52,500 nt of DNA, from positions 1 through 52,500 of the forward strand of contig JAIQGA010000026.1 of assembly GCA_020072925.1 (NCBI GenBank), written 5' to 3'. Both the position numbers and the translations under genes were made by a program. Below, piece by piece: positions 7,331 through 35,257 of the stretch. The stretch comes from Terriglobia bacterium. Its GTDB lineage: Bacteria; Acidobacteriota; Terriglobia; UBA7540. Positions within the stretch are counted from its first letter, which is position 1; each line of letters opens with the position of its first letter. Under the pieces are notes generated by a model. It searched no databases. It was given only the letters and a program-made list of their open reading frames with translations, and was not told the DNA's origin.

Positions 7331-7410
7331 GAAGTTAGAAGTCGAAAGCCGCCACCGCGGCTCTCGGTTTCCTGGCTTTCAACTTTCGACTTTCGACTTT
7401 TGACTTGGCC
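7331..7410. repeat. Inverted heptad array g (at 3' end of HAD gene)
   Basis: The right arm holds CTTTCAA, CTTTCGA, CTTTCGA, CTTTTGA and CTTGGCC (7376-7410). The left arm holds GAAGTTA, GAAGTCG and AAAGCC (7331-7350), inverted relative to it. The centre is about 25 bases and carries no gene. The whole unit lies inside the 3' end of the HAD gene and supplies its stop codon (7335-7337). Confidence 0.75.
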
Positions 7411-8078: not shown

Positions 8079-8147
8079 CGAAGATTTTCCTGTCTGGGAA
8101 TTGTTTTTCATCTAATGAACTTTAATCCTTTCAATACGCTATTAATG

Positions 8148-8268
8148 GTGAATAGTGAATAGTGAATTGAGAACAGCGGGACCTTGGGACCAAGGACAAA
8201 TCTAATCTTGCACTGTAAACCCCGAAGTCTGGCAATTCACTATTCACAATTCACTATTCACTATTACG
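8148..8268. repeat. Inverted heptad array c (empty form)
   Basis: The left arm has GTGAATA, GTGAATA and GTGAATT (8148-8168). The right arm has AATTCAC, TATTCAC, AATTCAC, TATTCAC and TATTACG (8234-8268), the inverted complement. A centre of 65 bases holds only a small CCTTGG/CCAAGG stem and no gene. It sits between the ligase and HAD genes. The right arm contains the ligase stop codon (TAA, 8264-8266 read on the minus strand). Confidence 0.85.
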
Positions 8269-9580: not shown

Positions 9581-9605
9581 GTTCAGTTTTCCTTGTTATC
9601 GATAT

Positions 9606-9682
9606 GCTGTCAGCAGTCAGCTTTCAGCTATCAGCAAACATGGACTTTTCTCGCTGATTGCTGACGGCTGATAGCTGACCGC
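9606..9682. repeat. Inverted heptad array e (empty form)
   Basis: The left arm has GCTGTCA, GCAGTCA, GCTTTCA and GCTATCA (9606-9633). The right arm has TGATTGC, TGACGGC, TGATAGC and TGACCGC (9655-9682), the inverted complement of consensus GCNNTCA. The loop is about 21 bases. It separates the glycosyltransferase remnant from the ligase gene. Confidence 0.85.
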
Positions 9683-9687
9683 TTCTT

Positions 9688-10796: not shown

Positions 10797-10806
10797 GGGC
10801 GTAACC

Positions 10807-10883
10807 AGAAGTCAGGAGTCAGAAGCCAGGAGTCAGAAGAAAAGAACAGCGTTACTGAGAACTGATTACTGACCACTGAGAAC
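10807..10883. repeat. Inverted heptad array f (empty form)
   Basis: The left arm has AGAAGTC, AGGAGTC, AGAAGCC and AGGAGTC (10807-10834). The right arm has TGAGAAC, TGATTAC, TGACCAC and TGAGAAC (10856-10883). The arms share an inverted CTGA/TCAG core every 7 bases. On the minus strand the right arm reads GTTCTCA, GTGGTCA, GTAATCA, GTTCTCA, the same consensus GTNNTCA as array a at 21994. It separates the ketosynthase and glycosyltransferase genes. Confidence 0.8.
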
Positions 10884-10889
10884 TTTTTT

Positions 10890-19382: not shown

Positions 19383-20591
19383 ATGGCGAACAACAATCAC
19401 CACAAGAAGCGGCGGCGTTGGATACTGGCGGCGGTTGCCGGCGTCATCCTGGTCGGCGGCGGATTCGGCATCGCTGCGGCACTGAAACCCAATCATTCGA
19501 TTGATCCCTCGAAACTGGCGGAAGTCACGAAGGGAGATATTGCCCGCTCGGTCGTGGCCACCGGCAAGATTGAGCCCCTGGCAAAAGTCGAGGTGAAATC
19601 CAAGGCCAGCGGGATCGTGGAAAAAATCTTTGCGGACTATGGCGATCACGTCAAGCAGGGCCAGGTGCTGGTGGAGCTCGACAAGGAACAACTGCGGGCG
19701 CGCGTCGCGGAGGCTCGGGCGAACTTGCAAGCGGCGGAGGCTGCTGTGCAGTCCGCCGAAGCAACCTACGAGCGCAATGTCGTGGACGCCCAGGGTCCTG
19801 ACTTGCCCTTCTTGAAAGCGACGGTCGAGCGCGATCGGAAGCTGGCGGCCGACGGGCTGATTTCCGCCTCGGTGATGGAGGATGCCGACAAGGCCTACCA
19901 GCTCGCGTTGAACAAGCAGATGTCCGCGCTGCGCAACGTGGCGGTCAGCCGCGCCGAAGTCGCCCGCGCGAACGCCCAGGTGGCCCAGTCGCAAGCCGCC
20001 CTGGACAGCGCGGAGGAGGATTTCAACAACTCCACCATCGTCAGCCCCATGGACGGGCTGGTGCTCTCGCGCGATGTGGAGGTCGGCGATGCGGTGAGCT
20101 CGATCCTGGTGCTGGGTTCGCAGGCTACGCTGGTCATGACGCTGGGCGATGTCAGCGAAGTCTACGTGAAAGGCAAAGTGGATGAGGCCGACATCAGTAA
20201 GGTTTACATTGGCCAGCCTGCGCGCATTGTGGTGGAATCCCTCAAGGACAAGAAATTCGAGGGGAAGGTCACCAAGATCTCTCCCCTGGGTGTCGAGAAA
20301 GACAACGTCACCACCTTCGAAGTGCGTGTTTCCATCCAGAACCCTACCGGTGAGCTCAAAGCCAACATGAGTGCCAATGCGGAGATCATCCTTCAGGAAA
20401 AGCACAACGTGCTGCTCGTTCCCGAGGCCGCGGTCATTTACGACAAGGAGCGCCACACGTCCATCGAAACTCCCGACGCGGGCTCGAAGACGGGCCGCAA
20501 GAAACTGGCCGTGAAGCTCGGGATCTCCAATGGCGTCAAGACCGAGCTGGTCGAGGGCCTGAAAGAAGGGCAGCAGGTCGTACTGCAATGA
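19383..20591 (+). CDS. MacA-like periplasmic adaptor (membrane fusion protein)
   Basis: The protein has 402 residues from ATG 19383 (AGAAGG just upstream); an in-frame TTG at 19338 is less likely. A single N-terminal anchor (WILAAVAGVILVGGG) follows basic KKRRR. Lipoyl half-motifs are at TGKIEPLAKVEVKSKASG and STIVSPMDGLVLSRDVEVGDAV. They flank an alpha-hairpin coiled coil (about 110-215) rich in Ala/Glu, then beta-barrel and membrane-proximal domains. It should link an inner-membrane MacB-type transporter to an outer-membrane channel. Two permease genes follow. Its TGA stop lies inside the first unit of heptad array d. Confidence 0.88.
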   Translation: MANNNHHKKRRRWILAAVAGVILVGGGFGIAAALKPNHSIDPSKLAEVTKGDIARSVVATGKIEPLAKVEVKSKASGIVEKIFADYGDHVKQGQVLVELDKEQLRARVAEARANLQAAEAAVQSAEATYERNVVDAQGPDLPFLKATVERDRKLAADGLISASVMEDADKAYQLALNKQMSALRNVAVSRAEVARANAQVAQSQAALDSAEEDFNNSTIVSPMDGLVLSRDVEVGDAVSSILVLGSQATLVMTLGDVSEVYVKGKVDEADISKVYIGQPARIVVESLKDKKFEGKVTKISPLGVEKDNVTTFEVRVSIQNPTGELKANMSANAEIILQEKHNVLLVPEAAVIYDKERHTSIETPDAGSKTGRKKLAVKLGISNGVKTELVEGLKEGQQVVLQ

Positions 20592-20680
20592 TGAATGCTG
20601 AATTATGAATGATGAATTGAGCGCTATCGAATTTTATCAGTTGGATTTGCGGTCATTCATCATTCTGAATTCATAATTCA
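20588..20680. repeat. Inverted heptad array d (empty form)
   Basis: The left arm has ATGATGA, ATGCTGA, ATTATGA and ATGATGA (20588-20615). The right arm has TCATTCA, TCATTCT, GAATTCA and TAATTCA (20653-20680). Read as TGAATNN on one side and NNATTCA on the other, the arms are inverted complements. The centre is about 37 bases with no gene. It separates the adaptor from the first permease and supplies the adaptor stop codon (20589-20591). Confidence 0.85.
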
Positions 20681-20721
20681 GCATTTTTCTCCGTCTCGAT
20701 TTACCTTTTGCGAGTTGGGTC

Positions 20722-21981
20722 ATGATTTTCAAAGACCTCGTTGCCGACACGGTCCGGACGCTCTGGTCGCACAAGCTGCGCACCTTTCTGACGATGTTCG
20801 GAATCGCCTGGGGCATCATCTCCATCACCCTGATGATCGCCGCGGGCGAGGGCCTGCGCGTGGGCCAGGAGAGGCAGCAGGAAACTTTCGCGAAAGACCT
20901 GATGATTGTGTTCGGCGGACGAACCAGCATGCAGGCCGGCGGGCTGCGCGCCGGGCGCGAGACCACCTGGCGACAGCCGGACGTGCCGGTGGTTCAGCAA
21001 GAATCCAGCGCCTGCCGGTACGTGCTGCCCGAGCTCGGGCGCGGCAACCTCAGCGTGCACAGCCTCTACAACAATGGCTCACCACTCGTTACGGGGTCGC
21101 TCCCGCCCTTCGCGGAGATCCGCTCGATCAGCGTGGAAGCGGGGAGATTCTACGATTGGGGCGACGAGCAACAGGCGCGCCACGTCGCTTTCCTCGGCAG
21201 CAACATCAAGAAGCAGCTCTTCGCGACGCGCTCCGCACTCGGCGAAACCATTCTCATCAACGACATCCCCTTTACGGTGATTGGCGTCATGGCCACCAAG
21301 GATCAGAACAGCAGCTATGACGGCTGGGATGTTGACAAGGTTTTCATTCCTTTCAGCACGATGATGAAGGATTTCCCCCCCAAACCACCCTTGCTCTCCA
21401 CCAGCATCGACCACCTGCTCGTGGTGCCGAAATCCCTCGACGACCACGAGCCCTGCAAGTGGCAGGTGCGGCGCGCGCTCGGGCGTCTGCACAATTTCGA
21501 TCCGCTTGACAAGGAAGCGGCGCCCATCTGGGACACCGTCGAGATGGCCAAGGCGTTCACCAAGCTGATGGACGCGATGCAGTACTTCCTCGGCGCCATC
21601 GGCATCACCACGCTCCTCCTGGGCGGCATCGGCGTGATGAACGTGATGCTGGTCGCGGTGCGCGAGCGCACGCGCGAGATCGGCGTGCGCAAAGCCGTGG
21701 GCGCGAGCGCGCGCTCCATCCTGAGCCAGTTCTTTATCGAGGCATTGATCATTGTTTTCCTGAGCGGAGGCTTGGGGATGGGGATTGCCTATGGGCTCTG
21801 CGCGTTGGTGAACCTGGCGCCGATGCCGCCGTTTTTCGCCGGCATGCTGCCGACCTGGCAATCCGGCGTGGTCTCTTTCGCAGTCCTGGGGAGTATTGCC
21901 GTGCTTTCGGCGCTCTATCCGGCCCGCCGCGCCGCCACCGTCGATCCCATCGAGGCGCTGCGGTATGAGCCGGGGGGATAA
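20722..21981 (+). CDS. MacB-type ABC transporter permease (first)
   Basis: The protein has 419 residues. It has an N-terminal membrane segment after LRTFLTMFGIAWGIISITLMIA and a periplasmic domain (about 45-280). Three C-terminal segments follow, beginning with LLLGGIGVMNVMLVAVRERTREIGVRKAVGA, and the typical tail DPIEALRYEPGG. There is no nucleotide-binding domain. It follows the MacA-like adaptor through heptad array d and precedes a second permease. Two different permeases could form a heterodimer, as in LolC/LolE, with an ATPase supplied in trans. Confidence 0.9.
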   Translation: MIFKDLVADTVRTLWSHKLRTFLTMFGIAWGIISITLMIAAGEGLRVGQERQQETFAKDLMIVFGGRTSMQAGGLRAGRETTWRQPDVPVVQQESSACRYVLPELGRGNLSVHSLYNNGSPLVTGSLPPFAEIRSISVEAGRFYDWGDEQQARHVAFLGSNIKKQLFATRSALGETILINDIPFTVIGVMATKDQNSSYDGWDVDKVFIPFSTMMKDFPPKPPLLSTSIDHLLVVPKSLDDHEPCKWQVRRALGRLHNFDPLDKEAAPIWDTVEMAKAFTKLMDAMQYFLGAIGITTLLLGGIGVMNVMLVAVRERTREIGVRKAVGASARSILSQFFIEALIIVFLSGGLGMGIAYGLCALVNLAPMPPFFAGMLPTWQSGVVSFAVLGSIAVLSALYPARRAATVDPIEALRYEPGG

Positions 21982-21993
21982 AGGAAGTCGCCA

Positions 21994-22398
21994 GTGGTCA
22001 GTTATCAGTTCTCAGTATGGGGGTTGAATGCAGAATTTCAAGGCGCTCAAAGTCTGGGAAAAGGGCCACGCACTAACCCTCGATGTCTATCGCGCCACAT
22101 CGCGCTTCCCCAAAGACGAACTGTATGGACTGACCAGCCAGATACGGCGGGCCTCTGCTTCGATCCCAGCCAACATTGCAGAGGGCTGCGGAAGAACCGG
22201 CCGCGCCGAACTTGGCAGGTTCCTCCAGGTATCGATGGGTTCGGCAAGCGAACTCGAATATCATCTGTTGCTTGCCCATGACCTGAAATTTCTCGATGAC
22301 ACGGACTATCGGAAGCTAGAGGGTCAAGTCGTCGAAGTGAAGCGCATGTTGGCTTCGTTTGTGTTGAAACTGAAAACTGACAACTGAGGACTGATAAC
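21994..22398. mobile_element. Inverted heptad element a carrying a four-helix-bundle gene
   Basis: The left arm is GTGGTCA, GTTATCA, GTTCTCA and GTATGGG (21994-22021). The right arm is TGAAAAC, TGACAAC, TGAGGAC and TGATAAC (22371-22398), preceded by a 6-base TGAAAC. Consensus GTNNTCA and TGANNAC are exact inverted complements with free central dinucleotides. The arms enclose one intact gene (22028-22387), whose last codons and stop lie in the right arm. The unit splits two permease genes of one operon. Element status is inferred from layout and from the second example at 33399-33909. Confidence 0.65.
22028..22387 (+). CDS. Four-helix-bundle protein (23S rRNA IVP / S23 family)
   Basis: A 119-residue protein beginning MQNFKALKVWEKGHALTLD, with SQIRRASASIPANIAEGCGR in the middle. 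This is the TIGR02436-type signature (Q-[IM]-R-R-A-x-x-S-[IV]-P-A-N-I-A-E-G). Relatives are found as the protein encoded in 23S rRNA intervening sequences and as the Avd accessory of diversity-generating retroelements; biochemical role is unknown. It has no operon logic with the surrounding ABC permeases. It sits between inverted heptad arms, and its stop codon is in the right arm. A homologue in the same arrangement is at 33488-33856. Confidence 0.9.
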   Translation: MQNFKALKVWEKGHALTLDVYRATSRFPKDELYGLTSQIRRASASIPANIAEGCGRTGRAELGRFLQVSMGSASELEYHLLLAHDLKFLDDTDYRKLEGQVVEVKRMLASFVLKLKTDN

Positions 22399-23652
22399 TT
22401 GTTACGAGAAATTCTAGTACAGGCTTGGATCTCCCTCCGCCGCCAGCCGCTGCGGAGTTTCCTCACCATGCTGGGGATTGTCTGGGGCATCGCGGCGGTG
22501 GCGCTGCTGCTGGCCTATGGCAAAAGTCTCCGCTCGGTGGTCGTAGCGGCGTTTGACGCCTTCGGAAGAGGCGCGATCGTAGCCTGGCCCGCTCAGACCA
22601 GCCAGCAGGCGGGAGGCGAGCGCGCCGGTAAGCACGTGGTGTTCGAGAAGGAAGACGTCGAAATGGTCAAGGCGGAAGGCACGCTGGTCAAGAACATCTG
22701 CATGGAGACCGTACGCTGGCTCGGCATTTCCTACGGAGACCGCATGGCCAACACCGCCATTCGTGGCGCCTGCCCCGCCTATGGCGAGATGCGCAACGAG
22801 GTCCCGAGCCAGGGTCGCTGGATTGGCCCGGACGACATGCTGGAGCGGCGCCGCGTGGTCTTCCTGGGATACCGCCTGCGGCAGAAGCTTTTCAGCGAGC
22901 GCCCCGCGGTGGGCGAAACCGTGCGGATTTCCGGCGTGCGCTTCACCGTCATCGGCACGATGGACTTGAAGATTCAGGACAGCAATTACTTCACCAGCGA
23001 CGACGAATCCGCGTGGATTCCCTACTCGACTGCAGGCGACCTCTGGAACACTCGCTATGCAAATGTTCTGGTGTTCGAACCCATTGCGCCACAATTCGAA
23101 AAACAGGCCATGCAGCAATTCCGCGCCGCGATCGCCAAGCGCCAGCGCTTCTCGCCTACGGACGAACGCGCTATCATGATGTTCGGACGCGAACAATTCC
23201 GCCCCATCATCGATGGCATCACGATTGGCTTTGAAGTGCTCTTCACTTTCGTGGGTGCGCTGACCCTGGGCATTGGCGGCGTCGGGCTGATGAACATCAT
23301 GCTGGTTGCCGTCGACGAGCGCATCCGCGAAATCGGTCTGCGCCGCGCCCTCGGCGCGCGGCGCCGACACATCCAGGCGCAGTTCCTCTCCGAAGCCCTG
23401 GTCTTGACCTTCCTGGGCGGCATCTTCGGCATTCTCATGGCCTATGCGCTCTCGGCCGCCATCGGCACGCTGCCCCTTTACGGCCCTCTTTTCGAAGACA
23501 CCTCCGGCAAGGGTGACATTCATCTCTACATTTCGCTGGGAACCGTGGGTGTTTCCACAGCAATCCTCATCGTGGTCGGCCTGCTGAGCGGCCTCGCCCC
23601 TGCGGTGCGCGCTTCCCGGCTCAATCCCGTCGAAGCCCTGCGGTACGAATAA
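22399..23652 (+). CDS. MacB-type ABC transporter permease (second)
   Basis: The protein has 417 residues with the same architecture as the preceding permease: LRSFLTMLGIVWGIAAVALLLA, a periplasmic domain, then LGIGGVGLMNIMLVAVDERIREIGLRRALGA and tail NPVEALRYE. The start is TTG 22399, immediately after the last heptad unit. The AGGA in unit TGAGGAC lies 8 bases upstream and could serve as ribosome-binding site. No ATPase domain is present. It probably works with the MacA-like adaptor and the first permease; substrate unknown. Confidence 0.88.
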   Translation: MLREILVQAWISLRRQPLRSFLTMLGIVWGIAAVALLLAYGKSLRSVVVAAFDAFGRGAIVAWPAQTSQQAGGERAGKHVVFEKEDVEMVKAEGTLVKNICMETVRWLGISYGDRMANTAIRGACPAYGEMRNEVPSQGRWIGPDDMLERRRVVFLGYRLRQKLFSERPAVGETVRISGVRFTVIGTMDLKIQDSNYFTSDDESAWIPYSTAGDLWNTRYANVLVFEPIAPQFEKQAMQQFRAAIAKRQRFSPTDERAIMMFGREQFRPIIDGITIGFEVLFTFVGALTLGIGGVGLMNIMLVAVDERIREIGLRRALGARRRHIQAQFLSEALVLTFLGGIFGILMAYALSAAIGTLPLYGPLFEDTSGKGDIHLYISLGTVGVSTAILIVVGLLSGLAPAVRASRLNPVEALRYE

Positions 23653-32511: not shown

Positions 32512-32604
32512 TCCGACGAATCCTTGATTTTGGTTTCCAAATGGAAGCGCATTCTATAACATTCGTTGGAAGAATGGTACGCCGGAAAGGGGCAAACGAA
32601 CCAA

Positions 32605-33402
32605 ATGTCCAAGAAACATAAAGAGACGATTCAAAAACAATTCACCAAGACCGTCGAGGCCTTTGCGAAATATGCGGTCCGCGATACGCCCGAAATTCTC
32701 GCCGAGAAGGTGGAGTTCGTCAAACCTCAGGCGACGGACTTGGTCCTGGACGTCGCGTGTGGGCCGGGAGCGTTTCCTCTGGCGCTCGCGCCGCGCGTGC
32801 GGTTCGCGATGGGAATTGATTTGACCTTCGAGATGCTGCGCCAGTCGCGGGCCTTCCAGGCCGAGCGGCAGATTGCCAATGCCGCCTTCGTGAGTGGCGA
32901 GGCCGAACAACTTCCCTTCCCCGATGGGACTTTCAACCTGGTCACCTGCCAGTGCTCGTTTCATCACATCCCGAAACCCGAGCTGGCGCTGAAAGAAATG
33001 CTGCGCATCACGCGGCCCGATGGCCGATTGTTTCTCATCGATACGGTGGCTCCGGAAAGCGATGCGAAGTTCGAACTCCATAACAAGATTGAAAAACTTC
33101 GGGACCCCTCACACACGCTGTCGCTGCGCCTGACGACCTACCTCCGGATGTTCGAAGAAGCCGGCGTCGAAGTGACCCGCCAAGGCCTGCGGCGCCGCCC
33201 GCGCTCGTTCAACCAGTGGATGCTGCGCGCGGGGCTCGAACCCCACCACAAGCGCTATCAGGAAACCCGCCGCCTGCTGGAGGACTCCATCGCCGGCGAT
33301 CGCGCCGGCTTCTCCGCCCGGCCCCAGGGGGAGGATATTGAGATCGTTCATAATGAGGGAATGTTTTTATTGGCACGACAGGCAGAGGGATGGGAAAAGT
33401 AG
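32605..33402 (+). CDS. Class I SAM-dependent methyltransferase (UbiE/type 11)
   Basis: The protein has 265 residues from ATG 32605 (MSKKHKETIQKQF); a TTG at 32566 is possible. Motif I is VLDVACGPGAFPLALA at about 45-60, the acidic loop GIDLTFEML, motif II LPFPDGTFNLVTCQCSFHHI, and motif III RPDGRLFLIDTVAPE. It is related to UbiE-like methyltransferases; substrate unknown. The TAG stop (33400-33402) lies in the first heptad unit of element b. It is divergent from the FGE-fold gene. Confidence 0.87.
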   Translation: MSKKHKETIQKQFTKTVEAFAKYAVRDTPEILAEKVEFVKPQATDLVLDVACGPGAFPLALAPRVRFAMGIDLTFEMLRQSRAFQAERQIANAAFVSGEAEQLPFPDGTFNLVTCQCSFHHIPKPELALKEMLRITRPDGRLFLIDTVAPESDAKFELHNKIEKLRDPSHTLSLRLTTYLRMFEEAGVEVTRQGLRRRPRSFNQWMLRAGLEPHHKRYQETRRLLEDSIAGDRAGFSARPQGEDIEIVHNEGMFLLARQAEGWEK

Positions 33403-33909
33403 ACGGTAGACGGCATACGGTATACGGGGAAGAAAACCAGTGACTGGAAGCGGAGGACGACACACCCGTACTGGAAAGGGGATAAAAATGGGTATTGAGA
33501 AATTTGAACAACTGGACGTTTGGCAAGAGGCTCACGCGCTGGTGTTAGAAGTCTACCGTGGGACTTCGAAGATGCCTTCAGAGGAGAAATTTGGTTTGGT
33601 CTCCCAGATGCGGCGAGCCGCAGTGTCTGTTCCTGCGAATATTGCAGAAGGATTCAAGCGTCGTGGTCAGGCTGATAGAACGCACTTCTACAATATAGCT
33701 CAGGCCTCTCTGGAGGAGCTGCGCTATTATTTCATCCTTTGTCGTGACCTGGGATACAAGTTGGAACACGCTGCCATTGCGACGCAGGCAGAACATGTAG
33801 CGCGCATGCTCTATGACCTTGTACATGCCGTTGAAGGCCGTCGACAAGCGGCGTGACTCCCGTTGGGGCGTAAGTCTGCCCCGCATGCCGTCTACTGTCT
33901 ACTGTATGC
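33399..33909. mobile_element. Inverted heptad element b carrying a four-helix-bundle gene
   Basis: The left arm is GTAGACG, GTAGACG, GCATACG and GTATACG (33399-33426). The right arm is CGCATGC, CGTCTAC, TGTCTAC and TGTATGC (33882-33909), which as reverse complement reads GCATACA, GTAGACA, GTAGACG and GCATGCG. The stops of both neighbours (methyltransferase TAG 33400-33402, permease TAG 33899-33901 on the minus strand) lie in the arms. One intact gene is enclosed (33488-33856). The heptad differs from element a but the layout is the same. Confidence 0.65.
33488..33856 (+). CDS. Four-helix-bundle protein (23S rRNA IVP / S23 family), second copy
   Basis: The protein has 122 residues from ATG 33488 with AGGGGA upstream. 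Core motifs: FEQLDVWQEAHALVLEVYR and SQMRRAAVSVPANIAEGFKR, then a long helix RTHFYNIAQASLEELRYYF. It matches the protein at 22028-22387 along its length but is clearly divergent, so the two are not a recent duplication. It lies between converging genes and within inverted heptad arms, with no metabolic link to either neighbour. Confidence 0.9.
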   Translation: MGIEKFEQLDVWQEAHALVLEVYRGTSKMPSEEKFGLVSQMRRAAVSVPANIAEGFKRRGQADRTHFYNIAQASLEELRYYFILCRDLGYKLEHAAIATQAEHVARMLYDLVHAVEGRRQAA

Positions 33910-35257
33910 TGGGCTGAAACGGCCACTCCCGCCGCACCCGCGCGCGCAGCATATAGGCAATCGTCCCAATCGCGAAAACGGCGGCGGCGAAGATCAGCGA
34001 TTTGCGTGCGGCCGTTCCCAGAACGTAAATCCACCCCAGCACTGAGATCATTCCGGGAACGGGATAGAGCCACATCCGAAAAGGCCGCGCGAGGTCCGGC
34101 GCACGGGCACGCAGCAGGAAAAACCCGATGGTCTGCGGCAGGTACTGAATCAGCACGCGGGTGGCAATCAAACTTCCAATGACTTCTCCCAGGTTCCCCA
34201 GGCTGAAAACCGAAGCGATAACGCCCAGCGTAATGAGCGAGACGTACGGAAATCCCCCTTTAGGATGCAGGCGGCCGAAGATGGGGAAGAAATTGCCGTC
34301 GAGCGCGGCGGCGTAAGGAATGCGCGAGTAGCCGAGCAGGAGTGAAAAAACCGAAGAAAATGCGATCCAGAGGAGCAGCGCGGTCATCAGCCTGCCCGCC
34401 GTGGGGCCTTCCAGGATTTCGATGTACGCCGAGGCAATGAAGGGACTGTGGATGGCCTCACGCCAGGGAATGACACTCAAAAAGGAACAGGTCATCAGAA
34501 CGTAGAGCACACCCACCGTCAGGATGGAAAAGAGTATGGCGCGCGGAATGGTGCGTCCCGGATCGCGGATTTCCTCGGCGAGATAGCAGACATTGTAATA
34601 TCCGAAATAATCATATAAGGCATAAAGCGTCGCGTGACCCAAGCCAGCGAAAAAGATCCAGTTGAGGTGGAAGGCCTGGGGAGGAAAATCGAAAAGTCGC
34701 GCCGCGCTCAGGTGCGGCAGGCCGGCCACCACAATCCACAGGCAGCCACCCAGGACGCCGGTGACCAGGACGAGCGAAAGGTTTCCAATTGTTCCGATGC
34801 GACGGTAGAGGAGCACAACCAGAAGGAGCGGAAACGCCGCCGCCACCAGCCGCACGCCCCACGGCCCCAGGTGCGGCAGGAGGAAGCGCAAGTATCCCGC
34901 AAAGCCGATGCTGCCGCTCGCCACCGAAAGGGGCGCCGAAAACATGATCTGCCAGACCATCAAGAAGGAGAGCCAGCGCCCCATGCGATGCGGCCCGTAG
35001 GCTTCGCGAAGATAGTTGTAGCTTCCGCCCGCTTTGGGCAGCGCGGCGCCGAGCTCCGACCACACCAGGCCGTCGCAAAACGCCAGCAGCGCGCCCACAA
35101 GCCAACCGAGCATCGCCTGCGGCCCGCCCATGGTGGCGAGGAAGAGGGGGATGGTGATGTAAGGGCCAATCCCCACCATGTCGGTGATGGCCAGCGCCGT
35201 GGCCTGGAGTAGGCCCAGCTCGCGCCGCAGTTGGGATGGCGGGTTGGCCAGGGTCAA
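33899..35257 (-). CDS. APC-family amino-acid/polyamine permease
   Basis: The protein has 452 residues from TTG 35257 with GAGGA 8 bases upstream. About 12 hydrophobic segments are visible. TM1 has the unwound substrate motif DMVGIGPYITIPLFLA and TM2 LGWLVGALLAFCDGLVWSELGAALPKAGGSYNYL, typical of APC secondary transporters. The C-terminus ends WPFQPSIQ with its stop in the heptad arm at 33899-33901. It probably imports an amino acid or amine. It converges with the four-helix-bundle gene. Confidence 0.9.
   Translation of the reverse strand: MTLANPPSQLRRELGLLQATALAITDMVGIGPYITIPLFLATMGGPQAMLGWLVGALLAFCDGLVWSELGAALPKAGGSYNYLREAYGPHRMGRWLSFLMVWQIMFSAPLSVASGSIGFAGYLRFLLPHLGPWGVRLVAAAFPLLLVVLLYRRIGTIGNLSLVLVTGVLGGCLWIVVAGLPHLSAARLFDFPPQAFHLNWIFFAGLGHATLYALYDYFGYYNVCYLAEEIRDPGRTIPRAILFSILTVGVLYVLMTCSFLSVIPWREAIHSPFIASAYIEILEGPTAGRLMTALLLWIAFSSVFSLLLGYSRIPYAAALDGNFFPIFGRLHPKGGFPYVSLITLGVIASVFSLGNLGEVIGSLIATRVLIQYLPQTIGFFLLRARAPDLARPFRMWLYPVPGMISVLGWIYVLGTAARKSLIFAAAVFAIGTIAYMLRARVRREWPFQPSIQ

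Follow-up and report, generated by a model that had tools for sequence, protein, structure and literature searches.

The feature under study occupies positions 33399–33909 of the window, by which we mean the whole 52,500-nucleotide stretch of the Terriglobia bacterium contig JAIQGA010000026.1 that was analysed. At its centre is a gene for a four-helix-bundle protein of the S23 family (PF05635/TIGR02436; 33488–33856, plus strand), encoding approximately 122 residues and flanked by two inverted arrays of 7-nt units, or heptads. The left array (33399–33427, plus strand) reads GTAGACG GTAGACG GCATACG GTATACG G, and the right array (33882–33909, minus strand) has the minus-strand sequence GCATACA GTAGACA GTAGACG GCATGCG. 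Upstream, a class I SAM methyltransferase gene (32566–33402, plus strand) ends within the first heptad of the left array, and downstream a convergent amino-acid permease gene (33899–35257, minus strand) ends inside the right array, the stop codons of both host neighbours being supplied by the arms (TAG at 33400–33402 on the plus strand and TAG at 33901–33899 on the minus strand). Translation of S23 is likelier to begin at the ATG at 33488, which follows GGAAAGGGG, than at the listed GTG at 33440, from which the frame is open.

The protein scores above the curated cut-offs of both S23/23S_rRNA_IVP family profiles, PF05635 (6.4e-35, 120 bits against a cut-off of 33.8) and TIGR02436 (3.1e-33, 114 bits against 24). 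The four-helix-bundle gene, its GTAGACG/GCATACG arrays and its two neighbours are all as first annotated. The AlphaFold model comprises four helices (pLDDT 90); its best structural match is PDB 2gsc (TMt up to 0.93), followed by 2rld, with Avd of the diversity-generating retroelements (DGRs) a more distant fold relative (4dwl, TM 0.80; RNP complexes 8ube/8ub7). Alignment of one arm to the other gives a score of 18, compared with a mean of 8.4 and a maximum of 11 for shuffled arms; among random segments of the same genome, a score of 14 was reached in 5 of 800 and a score of 18 in 1 of 800.

A second S23 element lies elsewhere in the window. Its gene (22028–22387, plus strand) sits between two co-directional ABC permease genes and encodes a protein 42% identical to the first, with a left array of TCAGTTA/TCAGTTC type (21986–22016, plus strand) and a right array (22364–22399, minus strand) that overlaps the S23 stop codon; a search for a phage match to this second protein returned none. 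The two elements also have different heptads. The initial annotation had described the two cargo proteins as diverged and had counted five empty arrays in the window, the number of ORF-less arrays or clusters that we also find. These are an AAGTCGA-type array (7345–7409) with a short inverted partner at ∼7335–7350; an inverted pair of GAATAGT type (8146–8267), the type of S23 locus L011 in the same genome; an inverted pair of GTCAGCN type (9605–9683), that of S23 locus L006, again in the same genome; a double array of AGAAGTC type followed by an inversely oriented TCAGT type (10805–10884); and an inverted pair of TGAATGA type (20587–20685), for which no S23 of the same type was found in the window genome. 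The last lies one junction upstream of the second S23 element, in a gene row (20540–22399) of an efflux adaptor and two ABC permeases; two successive junctions of this row carry first an ORF-less hairpin and then an S23 element, and their heptads differ.

The heptad-armed S23 arrangement at 33399–33909 is confirmed as real and general. In the window genome, a 6.5-Mb draft, there are 15 S23 genes; for 14 of them both flanks are available, and every one of these 14 lies between inverted arms built from a unit of its own. S23 genes occur in 37 of 39 family genomes, reaching a maximum of 23 copies, and under one scoring rule arms are found at 94 of 103 fetched family loci, the remaining 9 falling below threshold, compared with 5 of 800 random segments of the window genome. 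Sixty of 86 loci drawn from a genome-wide scan and from plasmids, covering ∼14 phyla by record title, pass the same arm score, and about a third of S23 loci from other phyla fall below it; in further S23 loci, mostly gammaproteobacterial, heptads are visible by eye in nearly all. The unit is 8 or 10 nt rather than 7 nt in a few elements (L109, L125).

Individual loci depart from the common form in other ways. In Sphaerospermopsis (L272), CTCCTGA arrays flank S23 in the same direction instead of being inverted. Locus L008 of the window genome and L081 of genome G003 encode S23 proteins 87% identical to one another, but in scoring, the arms of L008 behave like those of L081 reverse-complemented; with its additional arrays, L008 may be a compound or partly inverted element. 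Another locus of the window genome (L251, contig C443, 5786–5872) contains a long array that switches several times between heptad types (GAATGAT, AAAGGAT, GAAACCC, GAGAACT and GACCACT) while keeping the 7-nt register.

Comparison of S23 proteins with their arms reveals that each S23 clade keeps its own heptad. Family pairs with at least 65% protein identity have a mean arm similarity of 15.0, compared with 5.8 when permuted, and pairs between the family and other phyla have a mean of 13.6, compared with 5.3; when arms were shuffled among loci, none of 500 permutations reached the observed mean in either set. Below ∼55% protein identity the arms of two loci are no more alike than background, whereas at higher identity their similarity climbs steeply, even where the flanking genes are unrelated, and 13 of 14 pairs with unrelated flanking genes and 75–85% protein identity have a heptad in common. 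The heptad travels with the protein and not with the place. One S23 clade with AGAAGTC/CAGAATTC units, for example, is found in the window family, in an Acidobacteria MAG, an Ignavibacteriales MAG and a Bacteroidetes MAG, and on Nostocaceae plasmids, and in the clade to which the window element belongs the units are GTAGACG, GCATACG, GTATGTG or GTAGGTG (roughly GYAKRYG). The correlation of protein clade with heptad type that the initial annotation had proposed as a check is thus strong, extends to non-homologous sites and supports its idea that cargo and arms co-evolve. The simplest account of so lasting a pairing would be that S23 recognises the heptad, whether in DNA or RNA. Protein columns that vary with heptad type lie behind NIAEG and at the beginning of helix 3, a hint obtained without a permutation test.

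Within a genome, S23 genes hardly ever coincide in type: S23 pairs of one type make up 1 of 298 within genomes as opposed to 136 of 4073 between genomes, orthologues included. A rival reading is that a Y1/HUH transposase of the RAYT or IS200/IS605 type moves the hairpins in trans, with S23 as accessory or cargo. Y1_Tnp is indeed found in 34 of 39 family genomes, with 11 in the window genome, and a resemblance to REPINs (PMC8049555) lies in the hairpin-forming ends, the satellites and the single protein gene for each type. However, the heptads of one genome's elements are wholly different, so that no common recognition sequence is seen, the clade–heptad link is to S23, and genome G024, which is 98% complete, has two S23 elements and no Y1_Tnp match. 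We consider movement by such a transposase quite improbable; Y1 transposases, being common in the family, are a possible helper.

Related genomes differ in what occupies a given junction. At the methyltransferase/permease junction, S23 of the window type is present in two genomes (G000 and G003), several other relatives have ORF-less arrays of several types, and others have no heptads. A second junction, here called site B, has on one side a sugar-phosphate-isomerase-like gene whose product ends in MWWA and on the other a Gfo/Idh-like gene (both named from their translations rather than from Pfam). Among 28 genomes, ten have site B filled by S23, about ten have hairpins or arrays without an ORF (two doubtful; the window genome included) and eight have no heptads. 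The S23 elements at this one site come from at least five clades, with pairwise identities of 30–82%, and each has the heptad of its own clade; S23 of the window type (69–70% identity, GTAGACG-like heptads) is found there in G009 and G005. Outside the family, Picosynechococcus PCC 7003 carries an S23 element between cmr2 and cmr3 where PCC 7002, 89.5% identical in DNA, has a 15-nt spacer. In this exact pair, the only one of its kind, the spacer is replaced and there is no clean target-site duplication. Paired empty and filled sites, as the initial annotation had anticipated, are accordingly present at the methyltransferase/permease site, at site B and in PCC 7003/7002, the last as a single insertion difference. 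One junction is thus empty, ORF-less or filled by different S23 clades in related genomes, and the arms belong to the element. The cmr2–cmr3 junction is also variable in other ways (L223 and L224, compared with L139): in Synechocystis PCC 7338 it is occupied by a gene for a Uma2-family endonuclease, and in PCC 6803 by an apparent remnant.

At most about 20 nt separate the start of an element from the stop codon upstream of it. Many arms lie within 20 nt of the stop of the nearest long frame, but the histogram of these distances is biased, because heptads contain stops and spurious frames abound in GC-rich DNA, and named cases were used instead. At seven loci (L276, L277, L279, L280, L281, L283 and L284) the right arm lies behind the downstream gene's ATG and seemingly codes for an N-terminal extension, such as MTTSPLTPYPSP on a metF-like gene; judged by sequence, an S23 element may donate a start codon to the gene downstream. 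Two of these loci, L280 and L281, have the ahcY–metF junction in common and differ in their heptads.

Arrays of this kind might also be ordinary slippage repeats of the STRR (short tandemly repeated repetitive) kind into which S23 was inserted by chance. Arrays without S23 are common in the window genome, and two near-identical S23 loci from different genomes (L285 and L287) have unequal numbers of heptads in the left array, indicating a change in array length. Slippage alone would not be expected to yield arms that are inverted, match each other and follow the protein clade instead of the site; such an origin is contradicted by site B and by the clade–heptad permutations, and we regard it as exceedingly improbable.

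ORF-less arrays are more numerous than S23 genes. Counts for the window genome, taken from about 506 kb, give 50 lag-7 arrays, compared with 1–2 in shuffled sequence and 0–8 at unrelated lags, and a looser threshold gives 79, compared with 4–11 shuffled. Of these 79, among which are counted the six arms belonging to three S23 elements, 49% match an S23 heptad of their own genome as opposed to 6% of controls; 24 are paired in inverted orientation, and 23 adjoin an array of another type. A pattern for the AAACTCG type has 56 hits in the window genome and its control pattern none. Genomes with a cognate S23 have a mean of 20.3 AAACTCG arrays and those without have 5.0 (p=0.003, not corrected for phylogeny, with which counts by genome are confounded); arrays of this type are still present in 11 of 31 genomes that have no close cognate S23. 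At site B, two loci (L290 and L317) contain, in tandem with a full copy, a remnant comprising the arms and the start of S23 alone, and ORF-less forms can therefore arise by internal deletion. The proposal that empty arrays are non-autonomous or decayed forms thus holds in part: about half match an S23 type of their own genome and the internal-deletion remnants retain an S23 start, but some types have no S23 in the window genome at all.

The S23 gene is under purifying selection (dN/dS ∼0.05–0.31 where synonymous sites are unsaturated), and relative to the host gene row it is in the sense orientation in 60 cases and antisense in 3. This bias fits read-through expression from the host gene, or selection for expression, and could stem from the latter instead of from insertion. 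It would also suit an element acting at the RNA level, in the manner of the intervening sequences (IVSs) of 23S rRNA, in which base pairing of the two arms in the transcript forms a stem that is cut by RNase III, S23 binds or guards the RNA, the arms match because the stem must form, and movement is rare and passive, by recombination. The arms of the window element do pair in the predicted RNA fold, and the S23 fold resembles that of Avd, including in its RNP complexes. In Coxiella, RNase III excises the IVS, which starts with GACAGAT heptads and has S23p downstream of them (PMC4990558). An S23 element on an Azospirillum plasmid, lodged inside a 23S rRNA gene, has the same kind of arms, here full inverted arrays of GAGGACG/GAGGACA. 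Selection on a transcript stem should, however, leave an excess of G:U-compatible mismatches between arms, and across about 150 loci there is none (171 G:U-compatible versus 160 A:C-type). The likeness of the arms is thus unlikely to be maintained by transcript pairing, and we reject RNA stem selection as the sole cause of their matching. Nor is the whole-element fold unusually stable (z −1.47), and passive recombination leaves the spread of five clades into one junction unexplained; taken together, an RNA-level element of this kind seems unlikely. The order of heptad variants is mirrored between arms weakly above a unit-permuted null (21.1 versus 18.7) and clearly in a few loci (L054, L051, L110 and L208), a result that is compatible with one arm having been copied from the other but is no proof of it.

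The likeness to Avd (4dwl, 8ube/8ub7), together with the sense orientation, could also point to copying driven by a reverse transcriptase with S23 as its Avd-like partner. RVT_1 is, however, absent from several S23-rich draft genomes, G012 (23 copies), G014 (17), G018 (17) and G025 (13), and the DivGenRetAVD model scores far under its cut-off for the window S23. A reverse transcriptase acting in trans is rejected on the first of these grounds, and we judge the reading as a whole very improbable.

The window feature is probably a single copy of a mobile element in two parts, similar to REPIN/RAYT, that comprises S23, its cognate heptad arrays and ORF-less satellites. The cassette would be transcribed by read-through from the preceding host gene, and the S23 protein, a pentamer by homology, would bind the heptads cognate to it, whether as DNA or within the transcript. 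Such recognition could allow the cassette, and satellites of the same type, to enter new junctions immediately after stop codons, by copying or by movement. The operation would be akin to that of a REPIN/RAYT pair, with one protein gene and many satellites per type, and with a four-helix bundle in place of the transposase. No known nuclease or recombinase motif was found in S23. No transposition events were observed.

The heptad arms of the Azospirillum IVS and the heptads of the Coxiella IVS make rRNA IVSs and intergenic S23 elements look like one family in two niches, and the classical 23S rRNA intervening sequences would then be the same element lodged in rRNA. More tentatively, S23, a small protein with no recognised catalytic motif, could itself confer specificity on a class of mobile elements that spans the bacteria, reading a lineage-specific 7-nt unit in tandem arrays and mobilising cassette and satellite hairpins into operon junctions, with heptamer repeats (STRR, TAACTGA and GGGAATC) and 23S rRNA IVSs as its products. 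If true, this would join three separate puzzles, namely the function of S23, the origin and mobility of 23S rRNA IVSs, and the abundant heptamer repeats of many bacterial genomes, and with about a hundred natural protein/heptad pairs in one bacterial family the rules of recognition would be directly testable. As far as the literature searched extends, coverage being partial, there is no earlier description of an element class whose terminal arrays of short units co-evolve with a small non-transposase protein, and in that same partial literature we found no papers linking heptamer repeats to S23 genes.

Among known systems, the DGR accessory protein Avd (4dwl, 8ube) has the four-helix-bundle fold in common with S23 (TM about 0.8), but the window locus has no reverse transcriptase and no template or variable repeats, the one RVT_1 match of the genome being on another contig. 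Terminal-inverted-repeat transposons and MITEs carry a terminal repeat common to their copies, whereas the copies of one genome here differ in heptad, with the single match in 298 pairs given above. Intergenic tandem 7-nt units are a feature held in common with heptamer repeats, as the excess of lag-7 arrays over shuffled sequence attests. These include the cyanobacterial STRR, the GGGAATC repeats found in Xanthomonas (PMC4692102), which are commonly arranged as inverted pairs, and the TAACTGA repeats of Beggiatoaceae and others (PMC4679880), whose reverse complement, TCAGTTA, is among the heptads of S23 arms. We predict that the GGGAATC repeats, which occur in the species of the crystallised S23 protein, are linked to S23 through arms at XCC0516. 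The papers on TAACTGA and GGGAATC describe the repeats alone, with no link to S23.

The 23S rRNA IVSs (Coxiella, Leptospira; PMC4990558) share both the protein family and the complementary ends, and the window element likewise has an S23 ORF between arms that align and pair in the predicted RNA fold. It differs in lying between a methyltransferase and a permease gene with no Rfam match, rather than inside an rRNA gene, and in having ORF-less satellites and clade-specific heptads, which are undescribed for IVSs in the literature searched. In the REPIN/RAYT system (PMC8049555) each repeat type of a genome has a single protein gene lying between inverted repeats, along with many ORF-less hairpins and singlets, with satellites commoner where the protein gene is present, and all of this has its counterpart here. 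The termini of the S23 elements are tandem heptad arrays, however, S23 is also found on plasmids and at varying sites in relatives, and the protein is a four-helix bundle with an S23/Avd fold, PF05635 being its sole Pfam match, and not a Y1 (HUH) transposase. Since that defining transposase is absent, the window element is not a member of REPIN/RAYT, although of all the systems compared this is the one it most resembles in behaviour.
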